A DNA stretch of 18,005 nucleotides from Clostridia bacterium. GTDB taxonomy: Bacteria > Bacillota_A > Clostridia > Oscillospirales > CAG-272. Of the stretch, positions 3,524 through 16,556 are shown piece after piece. Numbering within the stretch: position 1 is the first letter of the stretch; each line of letters starts with the position of its first letter. The notes under the pieces were generated by a model. The model was given only the letters and a program-made list of their open reading frames with translations, had not been told where the DNA came from and ran no database searches. Location of the stretch: positions 1 to 18,005 of the forward strand of contig JAGAIH010000170.1 in the NCBI GenBank assembly GCA_017626655.1, read 5' to 3'. Both the position numbers and the translations under genes were made by a program.

Positions 3524-4067
3524 TTACAGCAGGGTGCCGGAGTCGATCTGAAGCCATGCCCAGCGCGCGTCGCCGCAACGTTCGGTGGACAAATGATAGG
3601 ACTGATCATTGAGTGTCACGAAGGCGGTCTCACAATCGGAGGCAAAGGGGCCAAAGCGGATGCGGATGGACTCAGCGCGGCAATCACCCTTGACCGTGAG
3701 ACTCATTGATTGGGTATTGACTGTGGGATATGCCGTTTCCATATCCATGGTCGCATTCGTATTGACGAGGGGGAAATCCTTGACCGAAACACTCCACCCC
3801 TTGGGAAGACGGGGCATGATTTTGACGGTATCCCCCATACGGGCGAGATACCCGTTACGATATGGAAGCACTTCATAGCCTCGGCTAACTGCACAAGGTT
3901 GCCCAGCTTACCCACCCGGGTGGCGGCGTCAAAATCCAGATGGAGATGGTGGAACAGGGGATCCTCATAGTCGAAGAACTTGGCGTACATGGGCCAGGTG
4001 CCGTACTTGTCCATGAGGCTGTCATCGTGGCTAAGGTAAAATTCGCGGGCCGTATCCATACGCCGAT
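3524..4067 (-). pseudogene. C-terminal remnant of a large glycosidase-like protein, frameshifted
   Basis: Two minus-strand frames join into one plausible protein tail. The upstream frame reads EGLDRRMDTAREFYLSHDDS, then KYGTWPMYAKFFDYEDPLFH and KLGNLVQLAEAM. A one-base shift near 3877 leads into EVLPYRNGYLARMGDTVKIM, then PRLPKGWSVSVKDFPLVNTN, ending SGTLL before a TAA. The pattern (helical end, then LP.LP.GW and a beta-rich end) resembles the C-terminal part of (alpha/alpha)6-barrel glycosidases such as GH95 or GH78; this is a resemblance only. The N-terminal bulk is gone: coding similarity stops near 4067, exactly where a plus-strand AraC remnant begins. The piece is thus both truncated and frameshifted. 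Confidence 0.6.
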
Positions 4068-4780
4068 CCAAACCTTCCATCTTCATTCCCACACCTTCCG
4101 GGAGGTGGTATGCTATACCCAAGGTACCGGGACGGTGGTAATCGACGGGACTCTTGTTGGCTTTGAAACGGAAGATATTTTCTTCCTTCCGCCCGGCAGC
4201 GTTCATTCCGACCACGCCGACGACGGCTTCAAGAATATTCACTATGAATTTGAGGACATCTCCTTCCCTTACCACACCCGGATCAAAATCCGAGACACCG
4301 ATGCGGGTGATTTCCTGTCCGTGATCACAAGACTCTACAATGAATACCAGCTGAAGCGCAAGAATTACGCGGAGATCGTAGACAGTCTTCACGACGTGCT
4401 TCTTCACTATCTCACAGCCTTTTCGGATCTTGTTCCCCATCATCCCTGTGTCGAATTTGCCATCAACCAGATCGTTACCAACTTTTCCGATCCGTTTTAC
4501 GATCTCAACCAGATGATGGCCCACATCCATATGAACCCCGACTATTTCCGTAAGCTTTTCAAAAAAGGAAATGGGGGGTTCCCCCCTGAAGTATCTTACG
4601 CAGATCCGCGTTTCTCATGCGAAGCGGCTTTTGCGCCTTAGGCAACGGTCGCCATGTCGATTCGAGAAATCGCGTGGCTTTCGGGCTTTCGCGACAGCCT
4701 GTATTTCTCCCGTGTGTTTAAAAAGATTACCGGTGCCGCACCGCAGGATTGGGCATACATTCATTTTAATGAATCGTATC
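4068..4780 (+). pseudogene. AraC-family transcriptional regulator, decayed
   Basis: Recognisable as an AraC regulator with an N-terminal cupin (TFHLHSHTFREVVCYTQGTG, then VVIDGTLVGFETEDIFFLPP) and a C-terminal double helix-turn-helix (INQIVTNFSDPFYDLNQMMA; HMNPDYFRKLF; KYLTQIRVSHAKRLLRL; MSIREIAWLSGFRDSLYFSR). The start is missing: the frame runs into the antisense glycosidase remnant instead of a start codon with a ribosome site. An extra A in the six-A run at about 4560-4565 moves the helix-turn-helix into another frame. A second shift near 4640 restores the first frame, so about 25 codons between the DNA-binding helices are read wrongly and a TAG lies in the original frame. Paired indels could be assembly errors, but the lost N-terminus supports real decay. 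It probably once controlled the adjacent glycosidase. Confidence 0.8.
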
Positions 4781-4861
4781 GGTCAGCCGTTTCATTCGCC
4801 GGATCGTTCCGTATTATGACCGTAGACCAATTCTCCGTAATTAAATATATTTTCGAAAAAC

Positions 4862-4925
4862 AAGGATTTTTACCATCCTTCTTTTGCTATACACTATTTG
4901 CCCTTTTTCGGGGCTTTTTCTTTTT
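4862..4925 (+). terminator. Two weak terminator-like hairpins after the AraC remnant
   Basis: AAGGAT/ATCCTT (4862-4879) is followed by CTTTTG. A short GCCC/GGGC hairpin close to 4900-4915 is followed by a long T-rich tract. Both read in the plus direction and would end transcription of the former AraC gene before it meets the opposing small RNA gene. Stems are short and AT-rich. Confidence 0.4.
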
Positions 4926-4952
4926 TTGGGGCTTATATCCGTCGGCTTACAT

Positions 4953-5062
4953 AGAAAAGTGCTGAGCCATTCGCTTACTGAAAAGCTTTTGACTCAGCCC
5001 CTTTTGTGGCGGAGATGGGGGGATGACGGTTAGGTACACAACGCCCTATACTCCTTAAGATG
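4953..5062 (-). ncRNA. Putative small RNA, copy A
   Basis: A short transcription unit without a credible protein. A promoter (5068-5096) precedes about 60 transcribed bases that match a second copy at 16465-16540 without gaps; counting the -10 region, identity is about 63 of 78 positions over 5003-5080. It ends in a hairpin, GCTGAGTC/GGCTCAGC (4961-4968 with 4991-4998), followed by a T-rich CTTTTCTAT. Conserved parts in RNA sense are GCCAUCU, AAGGAGUA, GUUGUGUAC, and a C-rich CCCCCAUCUCC plus CCACAAA just before the terminator. The CUCC can pair with the upstream GGAG. The C-rich segment resembles anti-Shine-Dalgarno regions of Firmicutes trans-acting small RNAs, and also the 3' end of some tRNA-Ser or tmRNA genes (CAUCUCCGCCA). 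No known family was recognised. Confidence 0.6.
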
Positions 5063-5067
5063 GCTAT

Positions 5068-5096
5068 ATTATATCACAAAGATCCGCCCCTGCCAA
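5068..5096 (-). promoter_or_regulatory. Promoter of small RNA copy A
   Basis: Read on the minus strand: -35 TTGGCA (5091-5096), 17-base spacer, -10 TATAAT (5068-5073). This is one mismatch from the sigma-70/SigA consensus, and the placement relative to the conserved core is identical to copy B. Confidence 0.75.
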
Positions 5097-5106
5097 CCGT
5101 TTTGCG

Positions 5107-5570
5107 TCAAAGCCTCCGCAGCCGCCGCACTCTGCTCAAGGCTTCCCCCGCTGTGTATAGCACCGCGATCGCGCGGCAGGTGTCCGAGCCGTACTGATCG
5201 TCGTTGGCGGGGTCTCCGCTGAAGAGGCCCGGGAGCCGTCCGCCCTCTGTGCGGGGATCTCGGGGGCGGTTATCGAGTAGTCGTTGGGCAGGTCCACGGT
5301 GCCGTGGTAGTGGGGGCGTGGAGGATCCGGCCCTTGGAGATGCAGATCTTTTCATAGGACGCCTTTTGGCGGGGTGGTTTCCCGCTGTTCCATGGATTCT
5401 TTTCAGTGGAATGGAGGCCCCACGGCCGACGCAGACCATTTCGGCCTGCCGCACATTGATCCCATCAATGGAGGGAGACAGGATCCCCTTCCATTCGTTG
5501 CCCGTAAACATGGTCTCGCCCGCCTGATGGGCGGTGGTAACGGTATCGGGCAGGGTTACCGTTTTTGCCC
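5107..5570 (-). pseudogene. Frameshifted remnant of a GH2-like glycosidase N-terminus
   Basis: Right after the TAG stop of the 5575 sialidase-like gene, the same frame continues as KTVTLPDTVTTAHQAGETMF and TGNEWKGILSPSIDGINVRQ. The homology then moves to a second frame (KASYEKICISKGRILH) and to a third (HGTVDLPNDYSITAPEIPAQ). VDLPNDYSI-x-x-P is the typical signature of the N-terminal sugar-binding domain of GH2 beta-galactosidases and beta-glucuronidases. No start codon with a ribosome site, no catalytic barrel, and at least two frameshifts are seen. The piece stops near 5107, next to the small RNA promoter. It is most likely the relic of a third gene in the sialidase-like operon. Confidence 0.55.
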
Positions 5571-5574
5571 CTCG

Positions 5575-6663
5575 CTACCGCTCCAGCCTCCAGACCGTCT
5601 GCATGATCACAGCCGGACGGTCCGCCCGCTCTTTGGCATAGAATACCGTAAGAATATCTCCATTAAGAAGTTCTACCGAGGCGGGATAGCCCAAGTCATG
5701 ATGAACGCCATTGATATACAGATCGTGGTCCGTGTCCCAGGTGTGCCCGTTGTCGCGGCTGACCATGACCTTGATGCCGTAAGGAGGCTGGCGGTATCCG
5801 TAGGTGGAGATGAGCGTCCCGTCGGAAAGCTTCAGCAGATGGGGGGGAGAGCCGCCCTGATCGGCCAGGAGGGGCCGCGGAGCCGAGAAGGATCGCCCTC
5901 TGTCCGAGGATTCGGATTGGTAGACCGTGAAGAGGCCTTGCCCCTGCACGCGAATGTGTACCAGGATACGCCCGTCCTCCAGAACGATGGCATGGGGCTC
6001 GTGGCTTTCCAGGCCGGGAATGTCGGGGATCTCCCCCAGCAGCTCGCTTTGCCCATCAGGGGTAAGGCGATACGCCGCCAGATGACGGTCGGGGGAGCGG
6101 GGGGCACCGAAGTATCGGCCCACGTACAAAATGTCCCCTTCCGGTGTCAGCGTAGGCCCGTGAGGGGAGGTAACGGGACACCGCAGAACCTCCCCGAAGG
6201 TCTTACCGCCGTCGTGGCTGACGATGAAGGTAGACCCCAGATAGGCTTCCTCGGCCGACTCGCCGTCCAGCACGTCCAGATAGCCGCTGATGTAGGGATT
6301 GTCGCCGTCCTTTCGCTCGGCGGTCTCCCAGTAGCCCCGATTATAGGCGCGCTGAGCCTCCTTGGTGTTGTTGAAGCTGGTGACGAGCAGGCTACGGTCC
6401 CCGAAGGGGAGGATCCCCGCGTCGCGGTCATCCAGCGGTGTATCCATGATGACGGCAGGGCGGCTCCAGGAAGCGCCTTCATCATCGCTGACACACATGA
6501 CCACCTTCCCGAAGGGGCAGATATGACGGTACCGAAATCCCGAAGCCACCATGGCTAACCGCCCGTCCTGCAAACGGGCCACCGAAGGCCACGCAAAATA
6601 ACCGTTGGCAGGGTTGGTGGGGTTGGAGCAAATGACCTTGATCTCCTTTACGGTAATTTTCAT
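5575..6663 (-). CDS. Sialidase-superfamily (BNR/Asp-box) protein, cytoplasmic
   Basis: A six-bladed propeller-type protein of 362 residues without a signal peptide. Four Asp boxes (S-x-D-x-G-x-[ST]-[WF]) are visible: SDDEGASW, SHDGGKTF, SSDRGRSF and SRDNGHTW. The first blade starts at WPSVARLQDGRLAMVASG. Annotation pipelines would call this exo-alpha-sialidase, but the classical FRIP-type arginine motif is not evident, so activity on sialic acid is not shown. The start chosen is ATG at 6663, preceded by AAAGGAG with seven bases between; an upstream in-frame ATG at 6687 overlaps the previous stop (ATGA) and lacks a better ribosome site. It follows its paralogue at 6684 in the same operon. It probably handles imported oligosaccharides in the cytoplasm. 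Confidence 0.85.
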   Translation of the reverse strand: MKITVKEIKVICSNPTNPANGYFAWPSVARLQDGRLAMVASGFRYRHICPFGKVVMCVSDDEGASWSRPAVIMDTPLDDRDAGILPFGDRSLLVTSFNNTKEAQRAYNRGYWETAERKDGDNPYISGYLDVLDGESAEEAYLGSTFIVSHDGGKTFGEVLRCPVTSPHGPTLTPEGDILYVGRYFGAPRSPDRHLAAYRLTPDGQSELLGEIPDIPGLESHEPHAIVLEDGRILVHIRVQGQGLFTVYQSESSDRGRSFSAPRPLLADQGGSPPHLLKLSDGTLISTYGYRQPPYGIKVMVSRDNGHTWDTDHDLYINGVHHDLGYPASVELLNGDILTVFYAKERADRPAVIMQTVWRLER

Positions 6664-6683
6664 GTGCGTATCTCCTTTCGGGA

Positions 6684-7799
6684 TCATCCGATCAGCTCGT
6701 CGTAGCGGACCTTGGTAATTTTAGCGCTGTTCAGGCAGATCCCGGTCCCGTTGCTGTGATAGTAGGCGACCAGGAATCCGTCGGCGACCTCCAGGATGGC
6801 TGGGTAGCAGTAGCTCTCGCTTTGGTCATCCTCCAGGAGGTAACAGCTTGCGGTGAAGGCATGGAAGCCGCCGCCCCCTTTGGTTGCTTCCACGAAGGAA
6901 AGTCCCCCGTCGCGGCTGACCGCGCACACGTAGGGGGTGCGCTTGGGACTGCCCCATCCTTCCGCATTGGGGTGTAGGCAGGTGTATGAGAGGGGATTGA
7001 ATACCGCCACCGTATAAGCTCCCGCCTCTCTGATCTGCATAGGCGAGTCGGGAGAGGTGAAGCACAGGCAGGGGGTGACGGGCCCCCACGTCTCGCCTCC
7101 GTCGGCGGAGAAGCACTGGTACTGATGGCCGTAGGCGGTCCTGCACCACATCCAGACCCGTCCGTCGGGGAGCTCGTACAGGCCGGGCTCCTGAAGCTGG
7201 GTGGGATCGTCCCGGAAGGGGGAGTAGACTGCCTCGGGGGACATGGTCCAGCTTTGGCCGTCATCGTCCGAGAAGCAGACCCGCAAGGACCCGGGGAGCA
7301 GTCCTCGATTGCCGGACTTGCCATGATAGGCCGCGGGGATCAGGAGGCGGCCGTTTTTCAGTCGGATGAGGCGGTCGTTGTTGACGACGTAGTATCCGTC
7401 CTCAGTCATGCAGGGGACCGGCTCACCAAAGGTCTTCCCCTCGTCCGCCGAGCGTACAAGATAGGGCATACAGAGCAGGTCGTCTCCCTTCATGGACTTG
7501 CGGAGATACAGAAGCCCCAGGTCGCCGTTTTGCATCCGCATCAGGCTGACCGACATGATGTTGAGGGCGTCGGTATCCTTCTCGATCAGGATTCCGCCGT
7601 CATACCAGGTCTCGCCCTCGTCGGAGGAATAGCAGGCCGCCACTCTGGCTGTGGCGTGGTCCTGCCAGCTATCACCGTAATACTGTGTGTAGGCGTACAG
7701 GATGCGCCCGTCCTTCAGACGGAGCAGAGATCCCTCCCCGTTGCGGGGATTTTTCTCGCCGGTGCTCAAAAAAAGCACTTTCTTGCCGATCTTTTTCAT
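6684..7799 (-). CDS. Sialidase-superfamily (BNR/Asp-box) protein, cytoplasmic, paralogue
   Basis: A 371-residue protein of the same superfamily as its downstream neighbour. Five Asp-box-like repeats are seen: SSDEGETW, SADEGKTF, SDDDGQSW, SADGGETW and SRDGGLSF. Other conserved parts are EGSLLRLKDGRILYAYTQYY and QEPGLYELPDGRVWMWCRTA. There is no signal peptide. The start is ATG at 7799 with a perfect AGGAGG five bases upstream; the longer open frame up to 7979 is excluded because it would contain the promoter at 7909-7937. First gene of the operon. The two paralogues in tandem suggest two linkages or two steps on the same glycan. Sialidase activity is a family-level guess; hydrolase or lyase activity on another acidic or neutral sugar is possible. 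Confidence 0.87.
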   Translation of the reverse strand: MKKIGKKVLFLSTGEKNPRNGEGSLLRLKDGRILYAYTQYYGDSWQDHATARVAACYSSDEGETWYDGGILIEKDTDALNIMSVSLMRMQNGDLGLLYLRKSMKGDDLLCMPYLVRSADEGKTFGEPVPCMTEDGYYVVNNDRLIRLKNGRLLIPAAYHGKSGNRGLLPGSLRVCFSDDDGQSWTMSPEAVYSPFRDDPTQLQEPGLYELPDGRVWMWCRTAYGHQYQCFSADGGETWGPVTPCLCFTSPDSPMQIREAGAYTVAVFNPLSYTCLHPNAEGWGSPKRTPYVCAVSRDGGLSFVEATKGGGGFHAFTASCYLLEDDQSESYCYPAILEVADGFLVAYYHSNGTGICLNSAKITKVRYDELIG

Positions 7800-7825
7800 G
7801 ATTACCTCCTGATAGGGGAGTCGGT

Positions 7826-7840
7826 ACGTATGCCATACGT
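7826..7840 (-). promoter_or_regulatory. Palindrome in the leader of the sialidase-like operon
   Basis: Perfect inverted repeat ACGTAT-GCC-ATACGT, between the predicted transcription start (about 7900) and the start codon at 7799. It could be an operator or a small leader hairpin. Confidence 0.4.
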
Positions 7841-7908
7841 TTTGGAAGATCTCTATAAAGAGCCTCGCGTCTCGGACGGCTGTGTCAGATCGTCTGTTCT
7901 GATAATTT

Positions 7909-7937
7909 ATTATACTGTAAATACCGTATTTTGTCAA
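7909..7937 (-). promoter_or_regulatory. Promoter of the sialidase-like operon with operator-like palindrome in its spacer
   Basis: On the minus strand: -35 TTGACA (7932-7937), 17-base spacer, -10 TATAAT (7909-7914), a full consensus match. The spacer contains the perfect palindrome AAATAC-C-GTATTT (7919-7931 on the plus strand). A bound protein there would block polymerase, so repression in the absence of inducer is inferred. The predicted leader is about 100 bases. Confidence 0.8.
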
Positions 7938-8040
7938 CAGGTAATGAGGCTTCTTCACTTGCTTGAAAGATCTGCTCACATAGAGAGTATACCGCGACCA
8001 TCTTCAGATAAGAAGCGGAGATCCCAGTTTCGGCTTACGT

Positions 8041-8087
8041 AAAACCGTGGCCATCCCCCCATCCCACGGACGGAGGACAGCCACGGT
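8041..8087 (-). terminator. Intrinsic terminator of the large discoidin gene
   Basis: In minus-strand RNA: ACCGTGGC (8080-8087) pairs with GCCACGGT (8044-8051), followed by TTTTAC. It lies 20 bases after the stop of the gene ending at 8107. The loop is long (28 bases). Confidence 0.75.
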
Positions 8088-8106
8088 CTCATACCCAAGC
8101 GACCGA

Positions 8107-11100
8107 TCATTCTCGGTCATTCACATAGAGCGATCTGTCAACGCTCTTTTTCTTTTTCAGAGCCACCGCTCCCGCCGCCACGCCAAGGATGGCCGCGCAG
8201 GAGAGCATAGCCGACCCGCAGCCGCTCTTGGGCTTTTCGGCATCGGGTTCGGTTCCGCCGTTAGGGGTGGGCTCGGCGGGGGTATCGGTGTCGGACTTGG
8301 CTGTATCCGACACCACAGGCTCGGTGGGGGTATCGGTGTCTGGATCCGCAGGCTCGGTGGGAATGTCGGTATCCGACCCGTCAGGAGTATCGGGTTCCAC
8401 GAGCCCGTCGGTATCCGGCTCGGCAGGGGTGGTCTCCTCCTCGGTATCCGGCTCGGTCTCGGGCTGGACCGTACGGGAAGCGATGACCTCCAACTCGGAG
8501 ATCTGGGTGGTGTACCCCTTGGAGGCGGGAGTTTTGAAGTGCTTACGGATCAGCACGCGGACGAATCTTGCCTCAACCTCGTCAAAGGCGATCTCTCTGC
8601 CTTTGATGTTGGTGGAGGTATCTCCCGTGACGGTCTTGACGGTATTCCACTCCTCGCCGTCCTCGGAGACCTGGATATCATATTCCTCGGGGAAGAAACG
8701 GCCGTCGGAGCCGCGGGGATACAGGTTCACCCGATCAAAGACATGATCGGTCCCCAGATCCACCGCTACCCAGACCTCCTCGTCCACGGCCTTGTGATAA
8801 TCCGAGGGCCAGGCCGTGAGCCAGTGGCCGCCGTTTGTAGGATGGGTCTTTTCCATGGCGTAGCCATCGGTCAGGAAGGCATAACCCAGGCCTTCGGCAT
8901 CCGAGGTCCAGCCGATCTCGGATGCGAAGACCTTCTTGCCCAGCGCCACATTGTCCCCTTTTTCGTAGGCCACGGGAGCGTAATCGGTCTTACCCACGGC
9001 TACGCTTCCGTCATCCTCGTAAAAAGCCAGCTCGCAGATCTCCACCCCCGTATGGGAAGCACCCGTGAAGGTCAGACGGACAAAACGGGCGGCGGTCTTT
9101 TCCAGCTTGAACACGGGGACCTCCTCGGTGGGACGGGGGATATCCGTAAAGCGCGCCGCCTCACGGAAGGTCACGCCGTCATCCGATACCTCCACGCGGA
9201 TACCAATGGGGAAGGAGGCGCCGCAAGCCACACCGTTTCCTGCGGGAGTCACGTCGAGACGGTCAAAGGTCTTGGCAGAGCCGAGATCGTAGGTCACGGA
9301 GGCCTCCGCGAGAGAGGTCCTCCAACCCATGGATGCGGGTCGGCTGACCGTTACGCCGTCGGTGAGCTTGCTGAAATACCAACCGTCTTGGCTATACGAA
9401 TCATCCGCGTCGCAAGGGAGCTTCTCCGCCAGGAGATTCTTCCCTTCCGCGGCGGGTGCAGTCAGATCCATGCCCGCGGGCAGGGCGTACAGGGCAAAGT
9501 CTCCCGCTCCCAGGGTCAGGGTCAGCTTGCCGTCCTGCAACGCTACGACGGACTCGGGAGCGTTATTTTGGGTCTTATCCAACAGATACAGGGTATCCGT
9601 TCCCTGTACGGTAAAGGTCATGGTGCGGGGGGAATCCAGGTCCTTGTTGACCAGCATAACGTAGTTGCGGCCGCTGTCCCTGTCCTTCATCAAGGACAGG
9701 ATGGCGTAGGCATCCCCTACGGGCTGAATGGCGAAATCAGCGGGGAGCTTTTCATAGGCTGAGGTAGCCGCGCTCTTTTGGCCGGTATGGTAGACCTCCA
9801 TGGCATCCAGCTTCATGAGTCGGGGACCTACGTTGTGTACCTCAGCATGGATGCCCTTGGCCACCTCGTACAGCTCGGTGGGCTTGCCGTTCTTGTCCAT
9901 GATAGCCTCGGTGTATACGGTATCATCATCGGGGCGGGAATCCGACACGAACCATGTGTAGTAGGAGATGTACTTCATGCCGTAGGCCAGACCAGCCGAG
10001 AAATGGTAGGTCAGATCTCCCTCGGTGGGACGGCGATAGCCGTTTACGTAGCCTACGCCCTGAATGTAGTAGCCCGTGTCCATATCCGTCTCCAGACCCA
10101 CGCGGCGAATGGCCTCGAAATTGGAAAACAGAGCCACCTCGTCCACCGCGCGGCTGTTCCACAGGAAGGGATAATTGTCCATGGACAGGATGCTCTTGAC
10201 GCGGGACGGCCCCAACAGCACCGCGTAGTCCCGCAGCACATCGGTATAGACAGCGTAGCCGGGATACACCCCGCCCGGGAGGAAGTTGATCATGGCCCCA
10301 CCAGCGCTGTTTTCATTGATGATGGAGACCACACGGGCGTAGGGGTTGGGGGCGTAGGGCTCGTCCTTGACGTGGAAGCCGTCCAGCATGGGGTAGTTGC
10401 CGTACCGCTCCGCAAAGGAAAAGATCTGCTCGTCGGGAGCCTTGACCAGCGCGTTCTCCAGTTCTCCCGTCAAAATGGACACCCGCATACCCCGTTGTCC
10501 GTTTTCCCATGTCCACCGCAGAGCCTCCACCATCTTCTCCACGTCCTCGATGCCCGTATCATCGGTAGCATCCTTGGTGGCAAGGTTGTGGTGCTTGGTG
10601 ATGACGTCCACCTCTGCCTCCCACAGGTAGCGGATCTGCTCCTCGGTGACGTAACGATCCGTCCACATGGGCACCGAGATGGTGATATTGTCGCGGCTCT
10701 TATCGTAGACCTTGACCGCTACAGACCGGGAGACACCGCTTGCGGTATCCGTGACCGTCACCGTAGTGTCGCCGTAGCTCACCGCGGTGATCTGTCCGTC
10801 AGGGTCGCAGGTCGCCACCGAATCATCGCTCGAAGAAAACCGGAACTCTCCCTCGCTCCTGTCCTTCATCACGGGTCTCAGGGTATCCTTTTCATACCGA
10901 TCCATCCAGATCTCCTCCTTGTTCAACGTAAACAGATCGTCCGGATCCGTATATCGCTCCCCAAAGATCTCCAGCTCCGACAGGGAGATCACGTATCCCT
11001 TGGAGGCTTTTGCCGCAAAGGTCTTGGTTATACGCAACCGCACGAAGGCCGCCCGCGTCTCGGCAAACGCATGGATGCGCCCTTCCTTGGCAGTGCTCTT

Positions 11101-11514
11101 GTCCCCCGCGACTGAGAGCACCTCCTTCCACTCCCTGCCGTCTTCCGAGACCAATATCTGATAATCCTCAGGGAAGAAACGACCGTCGGAGCCGCGGGGG
11201 TAGAGGGCCGCTCCGTTCAGGATACAGGTACCGTCCAGCGCGAAATCAATATATACGTCCACCTCCGCGCTCGGCAGATAGCTGCTCTGCCACGAGGAGA
11301 TACGGGTGCCCTCATGGATGAGCTTCTGCCCGTCGGTGAGGTACTTCATGCCGATCTGATCGACCTCATAGGTGAATCCCTCGTCGTTGGACTGTCCCAC
11401 GAGCCCCGCCAAAAGGTTTGCCCGCTCCGCGGCTCCTGCGGGGAGAAGAGACAGTGCCGACATCATCGGCAGAAGCATGGCGCAGAGCAAAAGCACAGAC
11501 AGCATTCGTTTCAT
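8107..11514 (-). CDS. Secreted, surface-anchored multidomain glycosidase-like protein with three discoidin (F5/8C) domains
   Basis: About 1135 residues. Signal peptide 1-28 (KRMLSVLLLCAMLLPMM, cleavage near AGA-A). F5/8C domain one ~30-190; Ig-like (Big_2-type) ~195-268; (beta/alpha)8-like domain ~270-575 with DGFHVKDEPYAP, whose Glu (~385) is a candidate acid/base of a clan GH-A-like enzyme; a beta-rich domain to ~680 (ALYALPAG); F5/8C domain two ~695-833; F5/8C domain three ~850-1008; a D/T/P/E-rich repeated linker ~1010-1090; then KSGCGSA, a hydrophobic stretch of ~20, KKKK and 12 more residues. Start: ATG 11514 with AAAGGAAGG upstream; an in-frame ATG at 11553 with GGAG is an alternative. 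It probably binds and cuts a glycan at the cell surface. The exact glycoside hydrolase family was not recognised. Divergent from the AraC gene at 11687, its likely regulator. Confidence 0.85.
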   Translation of the reverse strand: MKRMLSVLLLCAMLLPMMSALSLLPAGAAERANLLAGLVGQSNDEGFTYEVDQIGMKYLTDGQKLIHEGTRISSWQSSYLPSAEVDVYIDFALDGTCILNGAALYPRGSDGRFFPEDYQILVSEDGREWKEVLSVAGDKSTAKEGRIHAFAETRAAFVRLRITKTFAAKASKGYVISLSELEIFGERYTDPDDLFTLNKEEIWMDRYEKDTLRPVMKDRSEGEFRFSSSDDSVATCDPDGQITAVSYGDTTVTVTDTASGVSRSVAVKVYDKSRDNITISVPMWTDRYVTEEQIRYLWEAEVDVITKHHNLATKDATDDTGIEDVEKMVEALRWTWENGQRGMRVSILTGELENALVKAPDEQIFSFAERYGNYPMLDGFHVKDEPYAPNPYARVVSIINENSAGGAMINFLPGGVYPGYAVYTDVLRDYAVLLGPSRVKSILSMDNYPFLWNSRAVDEVALFSNFEAIRRVGLETDMDTGYYIQGVGYVNGYRRPTEGDLTYHFSAGLAYGMKYISYYTWFVSDSRPDDDTVYTEAIMDKNGKPTELYEVAKGIHAEVHNVGPRLMKLDAMEVYHTGQKSAATSAYEKLPADFAIQPVGDAYAILSLMKDRDSGRNYVMLVNKDLDSPRTMTFTVQGTDTLYLLDKTQNNAPESVVALQDGKLTLTLGAGDFALYALPAGMDLTAPAAEGKNLLAEKLPCDADDSYSQDGWYFSKLTDGVTVSRPASMGWRTSLAEASVTYDLGSAKTFDRLDVTPAGNGVACGASFPIGIRVEVSDDGVTFREAARFTDIPRPTEEVPVFKLEKTAARFVRLTFTGASHTGVEICELAFYEDDGSVAVGKTDYAPVAYEKGDNVALGKKVFASEIGWTSDAEGLGYAFLTDGYAMEKTHPTNGGHWLTAWPSDYHKAVDEEVWVAVDLGTDHVFDRVNLYPRGSDGRFFPEEYDIQVSEDGEEWNTVKTVTGDTSTNIKGREIAFDEVEARFVRVLIRKHFKTPASKGYTTQISELEVIASRTVQPETEPDTEEETTPAEPDTDGLVEPDTPDGSDTDIPTEPADPDTDTPTEPVVSDTAKSDTDTPAEPTPNGGTEPDAEKPKSGCGSAMLSCAAILGVAAGAVALKKKKSVDRSLYVNDRE
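8244..8465 (-). repeat. Degenerate tandem repeat encoding an Asp/Thr/Pro/Glu linker
   Basis: Repeated units around ctcggtgggggtatcggtgt encode variations of DTDTPTEP between the third discoidin domain and the C-terminal anchor. Such acidic, Pro-rich stalks commonly span the cell wall. The DNA repeats make length variation by slippage likely. Confidence 0.75.
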
Positions 11515-11596
11515 CTTTCGATACCTTCCTTTCGCTGATCCTTGATTTTTCATTGGAAAGCTCCGTCGGTGTCTTGACCGATAGCACCTTCTATGG

Positions 11597-11606
11597 TATA
11601 ATTATA
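11597..11606. promoter_or_regulatory. Symmetric -10 element shared by two divergent genes
   Basis: The ten bases TATAATTATA are their own reverse complement and supply TATAAT for both directions (11597-11602 plus, 11601-11606 minus). For the plus direction, TTGACC at 11574-11579 sits exactly 17 bases upstream, giving a strong promoter for the AraC gene. For the minus direction no good -35 at 17 bases is seen, so transcription of the large surface protein gene may need an activator. An inverted repeat GACAGG/CCTGTC (about 11612-11642) lies between the -10 and the AraC gene. Confidence 0.7.
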
Positions 11607-11686
11607 GCAAAGACAGGCTTTCAATTGTTTGCGATTCCTGTCGGATCCACCGCGATAGTATGGCATTTCTGCTGTAAGGAGGCATC

Positions 11687-12559
11687 ATGAAATACTGTCA
11701 TTTCGCCTTTGACGAGCGTCCCGAGCATTGCAGCTACCACATCAACCGCCATCAGGACAGCTCGGTGTTTCCCTACTACGTCCCCTCCATGGGGATGGAC
11801 GCCCAAGGTCCCCGCTACTTCACGGATCGCTGTGGCTTTGAAATGCTTTTCGTCTGCCTGACTCTGGAGGGAAGCGGCGCAGTCATGGCGGGAGAGGAGA
11901 GCCACATCCTTCTACCGGGGGACCTGATGGTACTGGACGGCTTCAAGCCTCACCGATATGAGAGCCGCTCGGAGCTGTGGCGGTTTTTATGGATTCACGT
12001 CAAGGGATACGGCGCGCGGGAGTTTTTCGGACGCATGGCTCCTTCGGGGCTCCTGTACCGACATATGCGAAACACCGCCCCCTTCCACGAGCTGTACGAA
12101 ACGCTGGTCCCCTTGGTCGAGTCCCCCACCCCCGAAAATAATCTGAAGGCGTCCGAACAGCTTGGAGGCTTTCTACACCGTCTGGCCTATTACACCGTTG
12201 TCAAGGAGGAGCCTGCTCTGCCCGACGCGCTGGGACGGACTCTCACGTATATCCGCGAGCATCTGGAGGAGGATTTGACGGTAGACGGATTAGCCGCGCG
12301 GGAGAATTACAGCACCTCCTATTTCACCCATCTGTTTTCCGACCGCATGGGGATCTCCCCCTATCGATACGTGCTCCGTCAGCGCCTCCAAAGCGCGGCC
12401 TCCCTGCTTCTCTTCACCGAACGGCGGGTGGAGGACATCGCGCGGCAATACCGTTTTTCAGATGCGGGACAGTTCATCGGTCACTTCCGCCGCTATTTCG
12501 GTGTGACGCCTCTGCAATACCGCAAGGCTGCCCGGGCCGAGCAACGACGGGGGGAATAA
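11687..12559 (+). CDS. AraC-family transcriptional regulator (cupin plus HTH)
   Basis: Full-length regulator of 290 residues. An N-terminal cupin sensor domain spans about 30-150 (CLTLEGSGAVMAGEESHILL, then PGDLMVLDGFKPHRYESRSE). Two helix-turn-helix motifs follow: LTVDGLAARENYSTSYFTHLF (about 205-225) and RRVEDIARQYRFSDAGQFIGHFRRYFGVTPLQYRK (about 245-280), a standard AraC C-terminus. Start: ATG 11687, preceded by AAGGAGG with the usual spacing. It is transcribed divergently from the large discoidin protein and should sense a sugar released from its substrate and activate that gene; this is inferred from position. An 80-base leader with a GACAGG/CCTGTC repeat may host autoregulation. Confidence 0.93.
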   Translation: MKYCHFAFDERPEHCSYHINRHQDSSVFPYYVPSMGMDAQGPRYFTDRCGFEMLFVCLTLEGSGAVMAGEESHILLPGDLMVLDGFKPHRYESRSELWRFLWIHVKGYGAREFFGRMAPSGLLYRHMRNTAPFHELYETLVPLVESPTPENNLKASEQLGGFLHRLAYYTVVKEEPALPDALGRTLTYIREHLEEDLTVDGLAARENYSTSYFTHLFSDRMGISPYRYVLRQRLQSAASLLLFTERRVEDIARQYRFSDAGQFIGHFRRYFGVTPLQYRKAARAEQRRGE

Positions 12560-12595
12560 TACGTTTTTGATCGAAATGTGTAGGAGACCGTACTC

Positions 12596-12745
12596 ATGGC
12601 AATGTCATGCTCCACGAAATGCAGAGCATGGGAGTCCCTGCGGCAAAAGCCGATACGCACATTGCCGTCCACGGAGGAGTTGACCTCGTCCGTACGGACG
12701 AGGGAGGATCATGGCACAAGTATGCTCCTTTTCAGCCGATCACAG
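12596..12745 (+). ncRNA. Candidate structured RNA or palindromic repeat element
   Basis: Several helices fit together without conflict. P1: GGCAATGT (12598-12605) with ACATTGCC (12659-12666), extendable by two pairs. Inside it are P2 CATGCTC/GAGCATG (12606-12612 with 12624-12630) and P3 CGGC-AAAA-GCCG (12641-12652), making a three-way junction. After it comes P4, a perfect 20-base palindrome (12684-12703, half site CCTCGTCCGT). A last hairpin (GGAG...CTCC then TTTT, to about 12742) may end AraC transcription. It may be a 3'-UTR element, a riboswitch-like RNA or a mobile palindromic repeat. A 52-codon ORF (12596-12754, MAMSCSTKCRAWESL start, AGGAG upstream) covers the same bases and is an alternative reading. 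No known RNA class was recognised. Confidence 0.45.
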
Positions 12746-12751
12746 TTATTG

Positions 12752-12783
12752 TAAAAACTCCCCCACCCTTGCGGGCGGGGGAG
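12752..12783 (-). terminator. Intrinsic terminator of the GH27/36-GH43 operon
   Basis: In minus-strand RNA: CTCCCCCGCCC, loop GCAA, GGGTGGGGGAG, then TTTTTAC. The one non-Watson-Crick pair is a G-U on the minus strand but an A-C mismatch on the plus strand, which supports minus-strand function. Confidence 0.88.
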
Positions 12784-12818
12784 CGGCTCCCGTTGAAAGG
12801 AGTGGAGGATTTTCAGTC

Positions 12819-12851
12819 AGCCCTCCCCGTTCAGGGGAAACGGAGAGGGCT
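12819..12851 (-). other. Strong hairpin before the operon terminator
   Basis: A 13-bp stem (12819-12831 with 12839-12851) and a 7-base loop lie just after the small lipoprotein ORF. The single imperfect pair is G-U in minus-strand RNA and C-A in plus-strand RNA, so it probably acts in the minus transcript. There is no T-run, so mRNA 3'-end protection is more likely than termination. Confidence 0.55.
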
Positions 12852-12877
12852 GCCTTGAATGGATAGGAAGGTGGAGA

Positions 12878-13120
12878 TCAGTCCTTCGTCTTCAGTGCCG
12901 CAAAGGCGGAGGCGGCGGCCAGGACGGCCACAGCGCTCATGGCGATCGCCGAGCCACAGCCCTCCTTGGCGGGGTCTTCGGTGGCGGGCTCGTCGGTGGA
13001 GGCGTTGGTATCGTCGTCGGTATCGGCGGGGTCATCGCTCCCCGTACAGGCTACGGCTGTCCCCAGCATGAGTGCCGCGAGCAGGATCGCAAGGACGCGC
13101 TTGGTCGTGTTCTTGACGGT
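12878..13120 (-). pseudogene. Tiny lipoprotein-like protein with C-terminal GCGSA tail; start codon lost or non-standard
   Basis: The reading frame encodes a convincing lipoprotein signal peptide (KNTTKRVLAILLAALMLGTA, then VAC with Cys as the candidate lipidation site), a D/T/E-rich linker, and KEGCGSAIAMSAVAVLAAAS ending ALKTKD. About 80 residues in all, with no folded domain. The natural start position, nine bases after AGAAAGGA, is GTC instead of GTG or ATG, and a TAG lies just upstream. The only ATG (13069) is inside the signal peptide and would give 63 residues without a working signal. The gene is therefore either inactivated, uses a rare start, or carries a sequencing error. Last gene of the GH27/36-GH43 operon. 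It may be an internal-deletion relic of a larger surface protein. Confidence 0.6.
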
Positions 13121-13167
13121 ATACGTTCCTTTCTATTTTCGTCTGTATCGCTCATGTTTTTGGGGTC

Positions 13168-14016
13168 TTACTTGACTGCAAGGAAATCGCCCTTGTCCTC
13201 GATCTCAAGGAAAACGGGATGCTCCGACCCCGACGCGTTGGGGGAATGGAAGGTCAGGCAGAGCCTGTCTCCCGCGCGGAAGATCATACCGTGGCCGCCG
13301 TCGCTGGTGACCAGGGGATCCAGATGGGCAAACTCGGTTCCCAGCTGTCCATCCGCGAATTTCACGAGATACTCGGCGTATCGTCCCTCCACGAAGGAGG
13401 ACCAGATCATGAACAGTTCCCCCGACGCCGAGCGGAACAGGAAGGGGCCGTCGGTAACAAAGTGGTCGCCCATGACGGCATCCACTCCCTCCACCGAGGA
13501 GGCGTTGAACAGGACGGTAGCCTCGCCGATGCCTTCGGTCAGATCCTCGTTCAGGCGGCGGTAGCAGATGGTACCGTCGAGGATCTGGGTATGCTCGTGG
13601 CAGAAGACGACGTAGGGATCGCCGTTGGGGGCCACGTACAGGGTGCCGTCCAGGCATTCCCATTCGGTGGGGGTCACCCCGCCCTTGCTGTGGGGGACGA
13701 AAGGCCCCAAAAGGCTCTCGGACCGCAGGATAAAGGTGGCGCGAAGCCCGCACTCGCGGGTAAAGGTGGCGAACATATAGTAGGCGCCGCGGTACTCGTG
13801 TACCTCAGGGGCCCAGTTGACACAGCGGTTCATGCCGTAGGCTTCGGAATCAAAGCAGGGGATGGGATCGCTCCAGGTCTCCAGGTCGGTAGAGGTATAC
13901 ACGTCAAAGCCGCCGGTTCCCTGACCGAAACAGGCGGCGCGGGTCCCGTACATATAGTAGATCCCGTCCTTGCATACGACGAAGGGGTCGCGGATGTTGA
14001 TATCAGAGCATTTCAT
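13168..14016 (-). CDS. Glycoside hydrolase family 43-like enzyme
   Basis: A 282-residue five-bladed beta-propeller hydrolase without a signal peptide. The N-terminal INIRDPFVVCKDGIYYMYGT carries the catalytic base Asp in RDP. CVNWAPEVHEYRGAYYMFAT follows, then LDGTLYVAPNGDPYVVFCHE. At the position of the usual acid motif EGP the sequence has TDGPFLFRSASGELFMIWSS; DGP in place of EGP, followed by MIWSS, is to my recollection typical of a subset of family 43/62/32-type propellers and need not mean loss of activity. Start: ATG 14016, preceded by GGAGG with nine bases between; an in-frame ATG at 14046 lies inside the previous gene. It follows the GH27/36-like gene by 16 bases. Likely substrates are alpha-arabinosides or beta-xylosides/galactosides; not resolvable from sequence alone. 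Confidence 0.85.
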   Translation of the reverse strand: MKCSDINIRDPFVVCKDGIYYMYGTRAACFGQGTGGFDVYTSTDLETWSDPIPCFDSEAYGMNRCVNWAPEVHEYRGAYYMFATFTRECGLRATFILRSESLLGPFVPHSKGGVTPTEWECLDGTLYVAPNGDPYVVFCHEHTQILDGTICYRRLNEDLTEGIGEATVLFNASSVEGVDAVMGDHFVTDGPFLFRSASGELFMIWSSFVEGRYAEYLVKFADGQLGTEFAHLDPLVTSDGGHGMIFRAGDRLCLTFHSPNASGSEHPVFLEIEDKGDFLAVK

Positions 14017-14032
14017 AGGAATTTTCCTCCAT

Positions 14033-15553
14033 TTAACGGTATTCAATGCGGATAAGCAGGGCAGGGGCGGTCTTGTCGTCCGTGGCGAACAGGGTCTTCA
14101 TATCCTCTGCCGTCAAGACAACGGTATCCCCCGACACGAAACAGGTGGTGCAGTCGGTCACCTCATCGCCGATGAGGCTCTGCACCAGGACTCTTGCGGG
14201 GGTCTCGGAAAGGCGCAAACGCATCTCGCAGTTCTCGCCGAACACACCGACCGTCGTCACCCCCTCGGGGATCTCGCAATACAGGGTGCACTCGGGATAG
14301 TGGTGATGGCCTTCGATCACGCGGGGGAACACGCCGACGCTGTAGGCACCGCCCGGATGGAGGGAGGCCGCCACGAAGGGCTTGACTTCTCCCTCCACGC
14401 GGACGGTATCAGCACCTACGTTGCGCGCGATCACGGCGGGGGCGCCTTGCGTGAGTTCTCTGCCGTCGGCACCGCCCCACCAGGAGTCACCCACTTGGTA
14501 CAGGCGGTTATCGAACAGCACCTCGTCGCTGTAGGTCACCTTTCCTCCCGCGAACGGGGGAGCCAGTCTCTGCCAGCGCAGAGCCGCCGTGACCTCTTTC
14601 AGGCGGAAGCCACGGTCGTCTCCCGCTTCGTTGATGGCCTTTTGGCAGTAGTGGCTCCGCATGACACCGCAGGAGCAACCCAGCACGGCGTTTACATAGC
14701 ATTCATCCTCGCCGTTGACGATGGCTCCCGACCACGCCAGGAGGGTTCCGACACGGTCTAAGGTCGTGGGGATACACAGGGCATTCAGCACGTCGTAGCT
14801 GCGGAACACGTCCGAGAAGGCCATGACCTCCCGGGCGAGCGCGGCCACGTATCCTTCTCCCTTGTAGCGCCCCTTGACGGCGGCGTCGGGATGGTCAAAG
14901 GCGTTGACAGGGCCCATACAGATCGCGTGCTCGATGATCAGGGCGGGGTACAGCTCACGGCCCAGCTCGGTCAGCATACGGCGGAAGTCGGGGTTCCCCG
15001 CGTGAACCCCCCAGTCCACCTTCCAGTAGGTGACCCCCGCCTCCAGGCTCCAGAGGATACGCTCGGTCCAGTAGGCTTTGTCGGCGTCACCAAGGGGGGC
15101 TGTGTAGTCCTCCGCCGCCCGATGGGCCGCGACCCAGATGCCCAGTCCCTTCCAGCCGAGGGCCTTGAGCTTTTCGTTGATGGTCTTCATGCGCCTAGCA
15201 GGGGTCTGACCCTTTACGGAGGGGAACCGCTCCTCGCTCATCATGAGGGAGCCGAATTTTGAGTAATGGCTGTCGGGATGGATCCCGTAGTCCACGTCCC
15301 AGCCGTCATCCATGAGGAAATACAGGTCACAGCGGACCTCGGGGTACTGGTGGGCGTAGCCGTTCTCACCGAAGACCAGCTCCTCGTTCAGCATGGTGCG
15401 GGCCAGGCGGGCGCCGTCCCCACCCTGGACCCTTCGTTGGGCTTCCTCGGGGGGGTATTTTTCCATGCAGTCGATCTTGGCGACGGTGTTCTGGGTGTGC
15501 CAGGAGCACCAGTAGGACAGGCTGTTCTCGTTTTTTGACGGTATCAGAGTCAT
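14033..15553 (-). CDS. Alpha-galactosidase-like glycoside hydrolase (clan GH-D, GH27/GH36-like)
   Basis: A 506-residue cytoplasmic enzyme without a signal peptide. The (beta/alpha)8 barrel shows the clan GH-D landmarks: LMDDGWDVDYG (near residue 80), LGWKGLGIWVAAHR, then VTYWKVDWGVHAGNPDFRRM with the candidate nucleophile Asp in KVDWG (about 180). MAFSDVFRSYDVLNA (about 250) would place the acid/base Asp, comparable to the R-x-S-x-D segment of GH27. A beta-sandwich domain fills the last ~130 residues. It is shorter than most GH36 (about 700), lacking the large N-terminal beta domain. Start: ATG 15553, AAGGAG upstream. The gap of 50 bases after the AraC stop has no promoter, so co-transcription with the regulator is likely. 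It probably removes alpha-linked galactose (or a related sugar) from imported oligosaccharides. Confidence 0.8.
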   Translation of the reverse strand: MTLIPSKNENSLSYWCSWHTQNTVAKIDCMEKYPPEEAQRRVQGGDGARLARTMLNEELVFGENGYAHQYPEVRCDLYFLMDDGWDVDYGIHPDSHYSKFGSLMMSEERFPSVKGQTPARRMKTINEKLKALGWKGLGIWVAAHRAAEDYTAPLGDADKAYWTERILWSLEAGVTYWKVDWGVHAGNPDFRRMLTELGRELYPALIIEHAICMGPVNAFDHPDAAVKGRYKGEGYVAALAREVMAFSDVFRSYDVLNALCIPTTLDRVGTLLAWSGAIVNGEDECYVNAVLGCSCGVMRSHYCQKAINEAGDDRGFRLKEVTAALRWQRLAPPFAGGKVTYSDEVLFDNRLYQVGDSWWGGADGRELTQGAPAVIARNVGADTVRVEGEVKPFVAASLHPGGAYSVGVFPRVIEGHHHYPECTLYCEIPEGVTTVGVFGENCEMRLRLSETPARVLVQSLIGDEVTDCTTCFVSGDTVVLTAEDMKTLFATDDKTAPALLIRIEYR

Positions 15554-15603
15554 AATTCTTCTCCTTATTTCGATTCGTATTTTTTGAGGGGAGCTTCCTT
15601 GCG

Positions 15604-16131
15604 TCAGTTCTTTTTCCGGTACTCCGTGGGATTCATCCCGACGATCTGCTTGAAGCTGCGGTTAAAACTGCTGAGGGAGGCGTATCCACACCGCAAGGAG
15701 ACTTCAAGGATGCTCTCCCTCGTGTTTTTCAGCAGATAACAGGCGTGATTCATCTTCACCATCCGAGCATATTCGTGGTAGGGCATACCCGTATTCTCAT
15801 GGAAGAAGCGGGAGAGATAGACCGAGCTGTATTCCAACTCCTTGGACAGATCTCCCAACGTACACGGAGTCTCCTTATGCTGCTCCACATACTCAAACAT
15901 TTTGCCCAGCAGGATATGGCGATCCGCGTAATAGCTTTCCACGCTCGGATCCAGCTGATCGACGAACAGACTCATCAAGGAATACAAGGCCCCCTTGGTA
16001 AAGGCGATGTTCTCGTTTCCCTCTTTCTCCCACAGATGATGCTCAAAGAGGGCTTGGAAGGTTTTTATGCTATACGCGCTCACGTTGCGTAGAACCGGAT
16101 CCTTATCATGTTGCCTTTCATACCTGATCAT
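15604..16131 (-). CDS. Short AraC-family regulator lacking the cupin domain
   Basis: 175 residues: a ~75-residue helical N-terminus followed by a standard AraC DNA-binding domain (CTLGDLSKELEYSSVYLSRFFHENTGMPYHEY, then ILEVSLRCGYASLSSFNRSF, ending GMNPTEYRKKN). Typical family members have 270-300 residues with an N-terminal cupin sensor. Here the ATG at 16131 has a good ribosome site (GGGAGG) and a -10 about 75 bases upstream, so the short form seems to be the real gene product rather than a mis-called start. How it senses a ligand is unknown. It heads the operon with the GH27/36-like, GH43 and small lipoprotein genes and should control it. Confidence 0.88.
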   Translation of the reverse strand: MIRYERQHDKDPVLRNVSAYSIKTFQALFEHHLWEKEGNENIAFTKGALYSLMSLFVDQLDPSVESYYADRHILLGKMFEYVEQHKETPCTLGDLSKELEYSSVYLSRFFHENTGMPYHEYARMVKMNHACYLLKNTRESILEVSLRCGYASLSSFNRSFKQIVGMNPTEYRKKN

Positions 16132-16204
16132 GGTGACCTCCCGTTTTTGGGAAAATGAGACCCACGTGCCGAGCTATGTCAATCATGCTCGCATTTTTCT
16201 CTTT

Positions 16205-16233
16205 ATTATAGCACAGTTTTTTGATATTTTCTA
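16205..16233 (-). promoter_or_regulatory. Probable promoter of the AraC-GH27/36-GH43 operon
   Basis: -10 TATAAT (16205-16210 on the minus strand) with a weak -35 TAGAAA (16228-16233) at 17 bases, in an AT-rich stretch. The poor -35 fits an activator-dependent promoter. Confidence 0.5.
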
Positions 16234-16404
16234 CCCTGTTTTTAACATATATTTTGAATTTTTTAACCCGATCGCCACAGTGAGCCCGATCCTCTCCCTT
16301 GGACAAAACGAACTATCCGGGGGACGGTGAAACGCGGTAGGAAGACAGGATCGGATCGGCCGTGGAAACGGGGCGGGCGGCGTCGGCAAACCGCCACGGA
16401 TCGG

Positions 16405-16522
16405 AGAAAGCAAGAAGGCCCCAACACGAAGATGGGCTTTGCCATGTGTTCGTTTTGGGGCCTTTGTGGAGGAGATGGGGGAATGCCATTCATGTACACA
16501 ACATTCTGTACTCCTTCAGATG
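16405..16522 (-). ncRNA. Putative small RNA, copy B
   Basis: Same organisation as copy A at 4953-5062: a promoter, an ungapped conserved core, the C-rich CCCCCAUCUCC and CCACAAA segment, then a terminator. The terminator stem is very strong: 16 bp with one mismatch (16415-16430 with 16449-16464), followed by TTCTTGCTTTC. The stem sequence is unrelated to that of copy A, so the structure is kept while the bases differ. AAGGAG can pair with CUCCU of the C-rich segment. Behind AAGGAG a very short frame TTG-TGT-ACN-stop exists in both copies (ATG precedes it only in B); it may be chance. It lies between lexA and the AraC operon, both on the same strand, but has its own promoter and terminator. 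Confidence 0.65.
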
Positions 16523-16527
16523 GCAAT

Positions 16528-16556
16528 ATTATAGCATAAAAGGGATTTTATGTCAA
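16528..16556 (-). promoter_or_regulatory. Consensus promoter of small RNA copy B
   Basis: On the minus strand: -35 TTGACA (16551-16556), 17-base spacer, -10 TATAAT (16528-16533). Full consensus, predicting strong constitutive expression. Confidence 0.85.

Follow-up and report, generated by a model that had tools for sequence, protein, structure and literature searches.

Promoter-to-terminator repeats of a Clostridia contig as putative island junctions at tRNA-Ser 3' ends

The stretch of DNA analysed here (the window) comprises 18,005 nt of contig JAGAIH010000170.1 from a Clostridia bacterium (GenBank assembly GCA_017626655.1), and it carries two look-alike copies of a short repeat, each of which runs from a promoter through a conserved core to a terminator. 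These copies are probably attachment-site junctions between genomic-island units in tandem, whose proper place is the 3' end of a tRNA-Ser gene. Four observations form the basis of this reading: the identity of the core with the tRNA-Ser 3' end; the uniform orientation of copies on a contig; their position relative to tRNA-Ser genes; and the homology breakpoints.

Both copies are on the minus strand, at 5003-5080 and 16463-16540. A repeat search aligned them without gaps over 78 nt at 81% identity and a spacing of 11460, bearing out the two offset stretches described in the first-pass annotation of the window; the promoter and terminator hairpin that it placed on one strand at each copy are likewise present. 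Over the 70 nt 3' of the core, a hairpin is followed by a T-rich tract, with folding energies of -22.6 kcal/mol (copy 1) and -26.9 kcal/mol (copy 2). The core pattern AAGGAGTANAGNNNGTTGTGTAC has two occurrences in the window and none in 200 dinucleotide shuffles, and model R1, run on the window with filters off, raised these two copies alone above noise (third best match, E 0.17). An Rfam scan of the window returned nothing at gathering level, in agreement with the annotation's view of the unit as undescribed; at E up to 10, it gave one unrelated, chance-level match on the opposite strand near each copy.

The repeat is a multi-copy family in relatives and matches no Rfam family. A core-pattern scan of genome contigs found five loci in three metagenome-assembled genomes of ruminant-gut Clostridia (G001, G002 and G003, referred to with the window as the window clade). 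In these, blastn matches at E<1 numbered 12, 15 and 11 (16 in total at E<1e-4), and those of model R1 at E<0.01 numbered 7, 12 and 3. The wider samples were partial, covering 58 relatives, 395 genomes of the larger family group and 394 of the larger order group. Model R1 had any match in 4 of the 58 relatives, the fourth (G041) weak, and matched 11 of the 395 family genomes at E<0.001; the broader model R2 matched 16 of the 395 at E<1e-4 and 4 of the 394 order genomes, one of them (G548) in the core only. The weak G041 and G548 matches were excluded from use. Because sampling was partial, filters were strict and few candidates were scored per genome, copy counts are lower bounds. No match was found in IMG/VR by pattern scan, or in plasmids or phages by blastn.

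The repeat core and the tRNA-Ser 3' end

The tRNA-Ser(GCU) genes of the window clade (G001-G003) end in CTCCATCTCCGCCA, followed by a terminator. The core block of the repeat reads exactly CCATCTCCGCCA in 13 of 17 clade copies and has one substitution in the other four, copy 2 among them. Elsewhere in the family, a copy consists of TTGTGTACATRA, a variable stretch of about ten bases and CTCCTTCTCCGCCA, mostly followed by a terminator-like hairpin; there, the tRNA-Ser genes too end in CTCCTTCTCCGCCA. A search with the pattern CTCCTTCTCCGCC in eight non-clade genomes returned copies of the repeat, tRNA-Ser genes and a few other places. Among the matches listed, a tRNA-Ser gene with the exact end was present in 13 of the 15 genomes searched, with a mismatch in G235 and none at the G139 loci scanned. 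Ten of 12 non-clade genomes have, again among the matches listed, a tRNA-Ser with exact TCTCTCCTTCTCCGCC, and the copies of these 12 carry CTTCTCC, save for one truncated G307 copy.

The conserved 3' block comprises the tRNA-Ser acceptor strand, G73 and CCA, and several of the terminators equal those behind tRNA-Ser genes. The direct repeats are identical to tRNA-Ser ends in relatives, and those of the window copies match such ends with 0 or 1 change. Since the ends of the copies and of the host tRNA-Ser genes match and covary, the C-rich block CCCCCATCTCCGCCA, which had been read as an anti-Shine-Dalgarno (anti-SD) segment, is on sequence evidence the tRNA-Ser 3' end, changing along with the host tRNA.

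In an information profile over 20 non-clade rows, with the decayed C88 and the near-duplicate C1 left out, TTGTGTACATRA and the tRNA end had means of 1.58 and 1.60 bits per column, as compared to 0.69 for the ten bases that follow the motif, 0.12 upstream and 0.34 beyond the tRNA end. The motif TTGTGTACATRA was not seen ahead of the tail in the tRNA-Ser genes inspected. A pseudo-tRNA was rejected as an explanation of the repeat, as the 5' acceptor strand is absent from most non-clade copies.

Two side observations concern tRNA-Ser tails. A second kind of site, which lacks TTGTGTAC, was seen at L045 8095, G001:C62 35099, L255 1501 and L216 6807; three of these four carry a longer tRNA-Ser-like tail (TTCAATATCTCT or TTCAAATCTCT before CCWTCTCCGCC), like ordinary tRNA-targeted islands. 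At L114 after 1512 (G003) and L101 after 1513 (G090), an apparent inverted piece of the tRNA-Ser 3' half lies directly behind tRNA-Ser and its terminator, with another tRNA-Ser tail within 224-232 bp.

Orientation, flanks and recombinases

If the copies are island junctions, the recombination core would be the 3' half of the repeat (CC(A/T)TCTCCGCCA), a copy of the tRNA-Ser 3' end. Upstream of the core, one unit would finish in its right end, which has TTGTGTACATRA as its mark and, in the window clade, also an outward promoter; downstream would lie the left end of the next unit, bringing the terminator that would end tRNA-Ser transcription on the chromosome. Recombination between cores would add, remove or reshuffle units, which would explain why upstream and downstream sequences swap independently at the core. 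A site-specific recombinase, of the CcrB-like serine or the tyrosine type, would act on these sites.

Contigs with at least two copies carry them on a single strand in 10 of 10 cases (25 copies, some partial; 3e-5 if orientation were random). With partial copies excluded, 8 of 8 contigs with 19 copies still show a single strand (5e-4, calculated likewise). Where a copy and a matching tRNA-Ser gene were both found on one contig, the copy lies downstream of the gene and on the same strand (5/5 contigs, all outside the window clade), at distances of 2.6 kb in G126, 8.8 kb in G136, 9.0 kb in G090, 9.5 and 21 kb in G307 and 25 kb in G336. When DNA right of tRNA-Ser was compared with DNA right of a copy in the same genome, homology began at bases 1-3 in four of seven pairs (174 bp at 84%, 201 bp at 91%, 125 bp at 95% and 38 bp at 89%), three of the seven having been picked after the match was already seen.

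Left and right flanks are common to copies independently of each other, and the switch falls in the core. In G001, one copy matches a G002 copy in its left flank (288 bp, 97%) and a different G002 copy in its right flank (~420 bp, 94%). A 10-kb block common to G001 and G002 lies between sites. Most of it is 97-98% identical, and a 1.5-kb piece is 86% identical; the tRNA-Ser flanks of the two genomes are 77-85% identical, below the level of this block.

The behaviour of the flanks bears on a different proposal, in which a small non-autonomous mobile element or tRNA-Ser-derived minigene was multiplied in the clade and moved as one piece. Its parts would be a promoter, a tRNA-like 5' GGAG, a new interior, the tRNA 3' end and a terminator. 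Clade conservation does run from the promoter to the tRNA end, the 5' GGAG(A)AG of some copies resembles the tRNA-Ser 5' end, and there are up to 12 matches per genome. Such an element is nevertheless quite improbable, as the two flanks of a copy recombine separately at the core, with hundreds of bases common on one side only, and the 5' half is absent outside the clade.

Recombinases give a mixed picture, with several points in favour of island junctions. A serine recombinase lies within 7 kb of 5 of 20 non-clade copies, where ~0.3 would be expected (overall expectation ~1 of 40), the 7-kb limit having been chosen after the data were seen; PF00589 was searched in 8 genomes and PF00239 in 16. 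The four serine recombinases tested near copies or tRNA-Ser resemble CcrB or XisF, below curated cut-offs. A CcrB-like gene lies 1.5 kb (G001, 512 amino acids) and 4.2 kb (G002) from tRNA-Ser. The CcrB model, with a cut-off of 900, matches this G001 recombinase at E 2e-54 (185 bits) and the recombinase upstream of the G369 copy at E 7e-36 (124 bits). In G002:C233, a unit runs from a clade copy to a site of the second kind with the longer tRNA-Ser tail, and an Xer-like integrase lies 0.6 kb in from the copy.

Unit cargo includes metabolic genes in the window and in the G136 region, and matches to defence models: an AriA/HEC-02-like ATPase in G126, type I restriction in G292 and Fic in G085. At L203 9536-11691, on the minus strand, the 2.6 kb that separate tRNA-Ser(GCU) from a copy form a unit with two genes on the tRNA's strand, for an AriA/HEC-02-like ATPase and a 223-amino-acid protein that has no PADLOC or NCBIfam match; the pair is possibly a two-gene defence system.

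Several observations weigh against the junction reading. In the window, ARAGORN found no tRNA and hence no tRNA-Ser, and a Pfam scan of ten window open reading frames found no recombinase among them. Of 20 clade copies, none has a serine recombinase within 7 kb, and just one has a tyrosine integrase nearby. Three of the seven same-genome flank pairs share no left end. A clean empty site of kilobase length did not turn up; G126 and G085 have only 62 bp in common right of the site. Near tRNA-Ser, the shared 97% element of G001 and G002 starts 0.3 kb (G001) and 3 kb (G002) after the gene, and no second core was recognised near it. Finally, the clade promoter is kept better than an attachment site needs.

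Promoters and RNA-based readings

At a threshold score of 10 of 12, a promoter is present in 14 of 17 clade copies (0.3 expected from shuffles) and in 4 of 22 non-clade copies (0.7 expected); one of the latter four, G307b, is only 3 nt from the motif and hardly usable. In the 14 clade promoters, the -10 lies 23-26 nt from the motif and the spacers have diverged; three have 4/6 in the -35. Terminator-like hairpins lie 3' of clade copies.

Under the junction reading, this promoter-to-terminator 'gene' would be either a short junction RNA or what results incidentally when a right end joins a left end. The well-kept promoter is a puzzle, and a short RNA may be made from clade junctions. One suggestion, tentative and unlikely, is that clade right ends gained a strong outward promoter and that the junction RNA might signal or regulate the array's state. 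Because the promoter sits at a fixed distance on the right end, each junction and each excised circle would then make a short RNA. This would consist of an island-end leader, the tRNA-Ser acceptor strand with CCA and the terminator of the next unit, and its possible targets would include factors that read tRNA-Ser, recombination at the junction and SD sequences.

The promoter hexamers, kept in 14 of 17 clade copies while spacers diverged, would also suit a true multi-copy small RNA family (LhrC/csRNA-like), in which a tRNA-Ser-derived C-rich segment pairs with ribosome binding sites and is kept for regulation. The same is true of the hairpins behind clade copies, the several copies per genome and the complementarity of CUCC/CUCCUU to SD sequences. 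LhrC of Listeria is a multicopy small RNA, with several copies and C-rich segments; in contrast, the C-rich segment here is the tRNA-Ser end. The supposed seed is the same sequence as the end of the host's tRNA-Ser and varies along with that end, and so is not a seed independent of other conserved sequence. In addition, 18 of the 22 non-clade copies have no promoter at the threshold, and neither uniform orientation nor cassette breakpoints would be expected. Together, these points make a regulatory small RNA family unlikely.

Structure and pairing were compared with shuffled sequences. Folding is somewhat better than in shuffles for the units 4963-5063 (z -1.9) and 16408-16527 (z -3.3), the value for copy 2 being a point in favour of a small RNA; a conserved RNA fold was rejected, as it is weak against shuffles. 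The first-pass annotation had proposed that CUCC could pair with an upstream GGAG or with ribosome binding sites of target mRNAs. Of 11 non-clade copies recounted on alignment A4, one has GGAG in register. The proposed pairs are present in 82.5% of cells, as compared to at most 65.1% for slid versions; the pair measures are not clearly above letter shuffles, of which 58, 80, 90, 32 and 52 of 500 reach them. What stands of the annotation's duplicated small RNA gene is a promoter-to-terminator family new to Rfam, with the homologues and promoters in relatives that it had called for; the trans-acting small RNA with an anti-SD seed is not supported, the conserved 3' block being derived from tRNA-Ser, an outcome that the annotation had itself named as counting against its proposal.

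The repeat further contains a nearly invariant four-codon frame, TTG-TGT-ACN-TRA (Met-Cys-Thr-stop), in which several changes keep Thr or the stop (ACC TAA in copy 1, TAA in others). A translated micro-ORF (open reading frame) or attenuator-like leader behind an SD would account for this pattern and is hardly credible: an SD in register is almost absent outside the clade (1 of 11 copies), Thr is replaced by Ala in several copies, TTG is lost in others, and there is no consistent downstream gene. Two related candidates were rejected. The peptide MNGIPPSPP loses its start in copy 1, and its frame is not kept past the core. For a cis-regulator of AraC or another downstream gene, neighbours vary by copy, and Pfam on 20 neighbours revealed no common gene.

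The window unit and comparable systems

The 11.46-kb segment between the two window copies (Table 1) is, we infer, an island unit or the remnant of one. By Pfam, its genes encode two AraC-type regulators, GH43, two BNR-repeat proteins and an F5/8-type-C protein; a 506-amino-acid protein between the copies has no Pfam match. A G002 block with 89% identity to the BNR pair (5553-8043) lies between a core with a terminator (10462) and a degenerate copy (13358). This homology ends ~460 bp short of copy 1, making the end of the unit at that copy inexact. At the other end of the pair, the match to the end of a G002 surface-protein block ends at 8040, and that to the G002 BNR block sets in at 8043; two G002 contigs carry a partial site copy ~35 bp after the surface-protein block.

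Table 1. Features of the two repeat copies and of the putative unit in the window
Feature	Position	Strand	Basis or remark
Copy 1 terminator hairpin and T-rich tract	4953..5006	-	Fold; start of the next unit under the attachment-site model
Copy 1 CCCCATCTCCGCCA, tRNA-Ser 3'-end block, putative attachment core	5007..5020	-	12-nt identity to G001-G003 tRNA-Ser(GCU) genes
Copy 1 conserved motif TTGTGTACCTAA (family consensus TTGTGTACATRA)	5030..5041	-	Putative island right-end motif
Copy 1 -10 TATAAT	5068..5073	-	Sequence and promoter scoring
Copy 1 -35 TTGGCA	5091..5096	-	17-nt spacer; 11/12 jointly with -10
Putative island unit between junctions	5019..16478	-	11,460 bp start to start
Cassette boundary inside the putative unit	8040..8043	-	Two homology blocks abut
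Copy 2 terminator hairpin and T-rich tract	16405..16466	-	Fold and sequence
Copy 2 CCCCATCTCCTCCA, tRNA-Ser 3'-end block with 1 substitution, putative attachment core	16467..16480	-	
Copy 2 conserved motif TTGTGTACATGA	16490..16501	-	Sequence, model R1, family alignment
Copy 2 -10 TATAAT	16528..16533	-	Sequence and promoter scoring
Copy 2 -35 TTGACA	16551..16556	-	17-nt spacer; 12/12 jointly with -10

Other features of the window were noted in passing. On the plus strand at 3940-4965, an AraC-family regulator is apparently split between two frames, with the ligand-binding part at 3940-4641 followed by 4571-4819 and 4654-4965; this appears to be a frameshift, a pseudogene or an assembly error. 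Adjoining copy 1, a short repeat at 4823-4960 matches three places in G003 at 78-87% identity. A second interspersed repeat (GGGGGAGCGGCTCCCGTTGAAAGGAGTGGAGGATT...) lies at ~12750-12830 on the plus strand and at ~10300-10420 in L046, where it is fused to an element copy whose core is interrupted.

If the island reading is true, it would explain the ordered stacks of carbohydrate, surface-protein and defence cassettes in these Clostridia. A 36-bp signature, comprising TTGTGTACATRA, ten variable bases and the 14-base tRNA-Ser tail, would then find island borders in metagenome-assembled genomes. A caution follows as well: promoter-core-terminator repeats can mimic a small RNA family even where a tRNA tail, serving as attachment site, makes up the core.

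In the titles and abstract openings listed from the open-licence literature, no description of such tRNA-Ser islands in gut Clostridia was found. Several known systems share parts of the arrangement. Tycheposons, as described in PMC10872708, are tRNA-bounded flexible islands and likewise place cargo at tRNA genes, whereas they use a XerD-type recombinase and other tRNAs. Like the staphylococcal cassette chromosome (SCC) and other ccr islands, G001 and G369 have recombinases that match the CcrB model, far below the curated cut-off; in the account of PMC10581047, ccr-bearing islands sit in rlmH or rimL, and tRNA-Ser genes hold prophages rather than ccr islands. The streptococcal cis-mobilizable elements (CIMEs) and the tandem accretion of integrative and conjugative (ICE) or integrative and mobilizable (IME) elements, as presented in PMC7563491, also involve attachment-site-bounded units that have no recombinase of their own and are stacked at the 3' end of one gene, with target genes that differ from the one here.

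The closest described system is that of the ssrA (transfer-messenger RNA) islands of Dehalococcoides, of which the window copies are probably a variant at tRNA-Ser. As reported by McMurdie et al. (2011, PMC3146451), those islands form tandem units with DsiB/DsiA serine recombinases, CcrB-like in some units, and have 20-bp direct repeats of the ssrA 3' end, a conserved non-ssrA motif just upstream and variable cargo. In contrast to that account, the target here is tRNA-Ser, the motif is TTGTGTACATRA, and the right end bears a promoter in the clade; clade copies also sit on contigs that have no tRNA-Ser and, save one, no nearby recombinase. The reported ssrA islands and the putative ones here have in common a tandem arrangement downstream of a structured-RNA gene, direct repeats of that gene's 3' end (12-14 bp here, 20 bp there), a motif just upstream of each repeat with no counterpart in the gene itself, cargo that varies and, in some units, CcrB-like recombinases.

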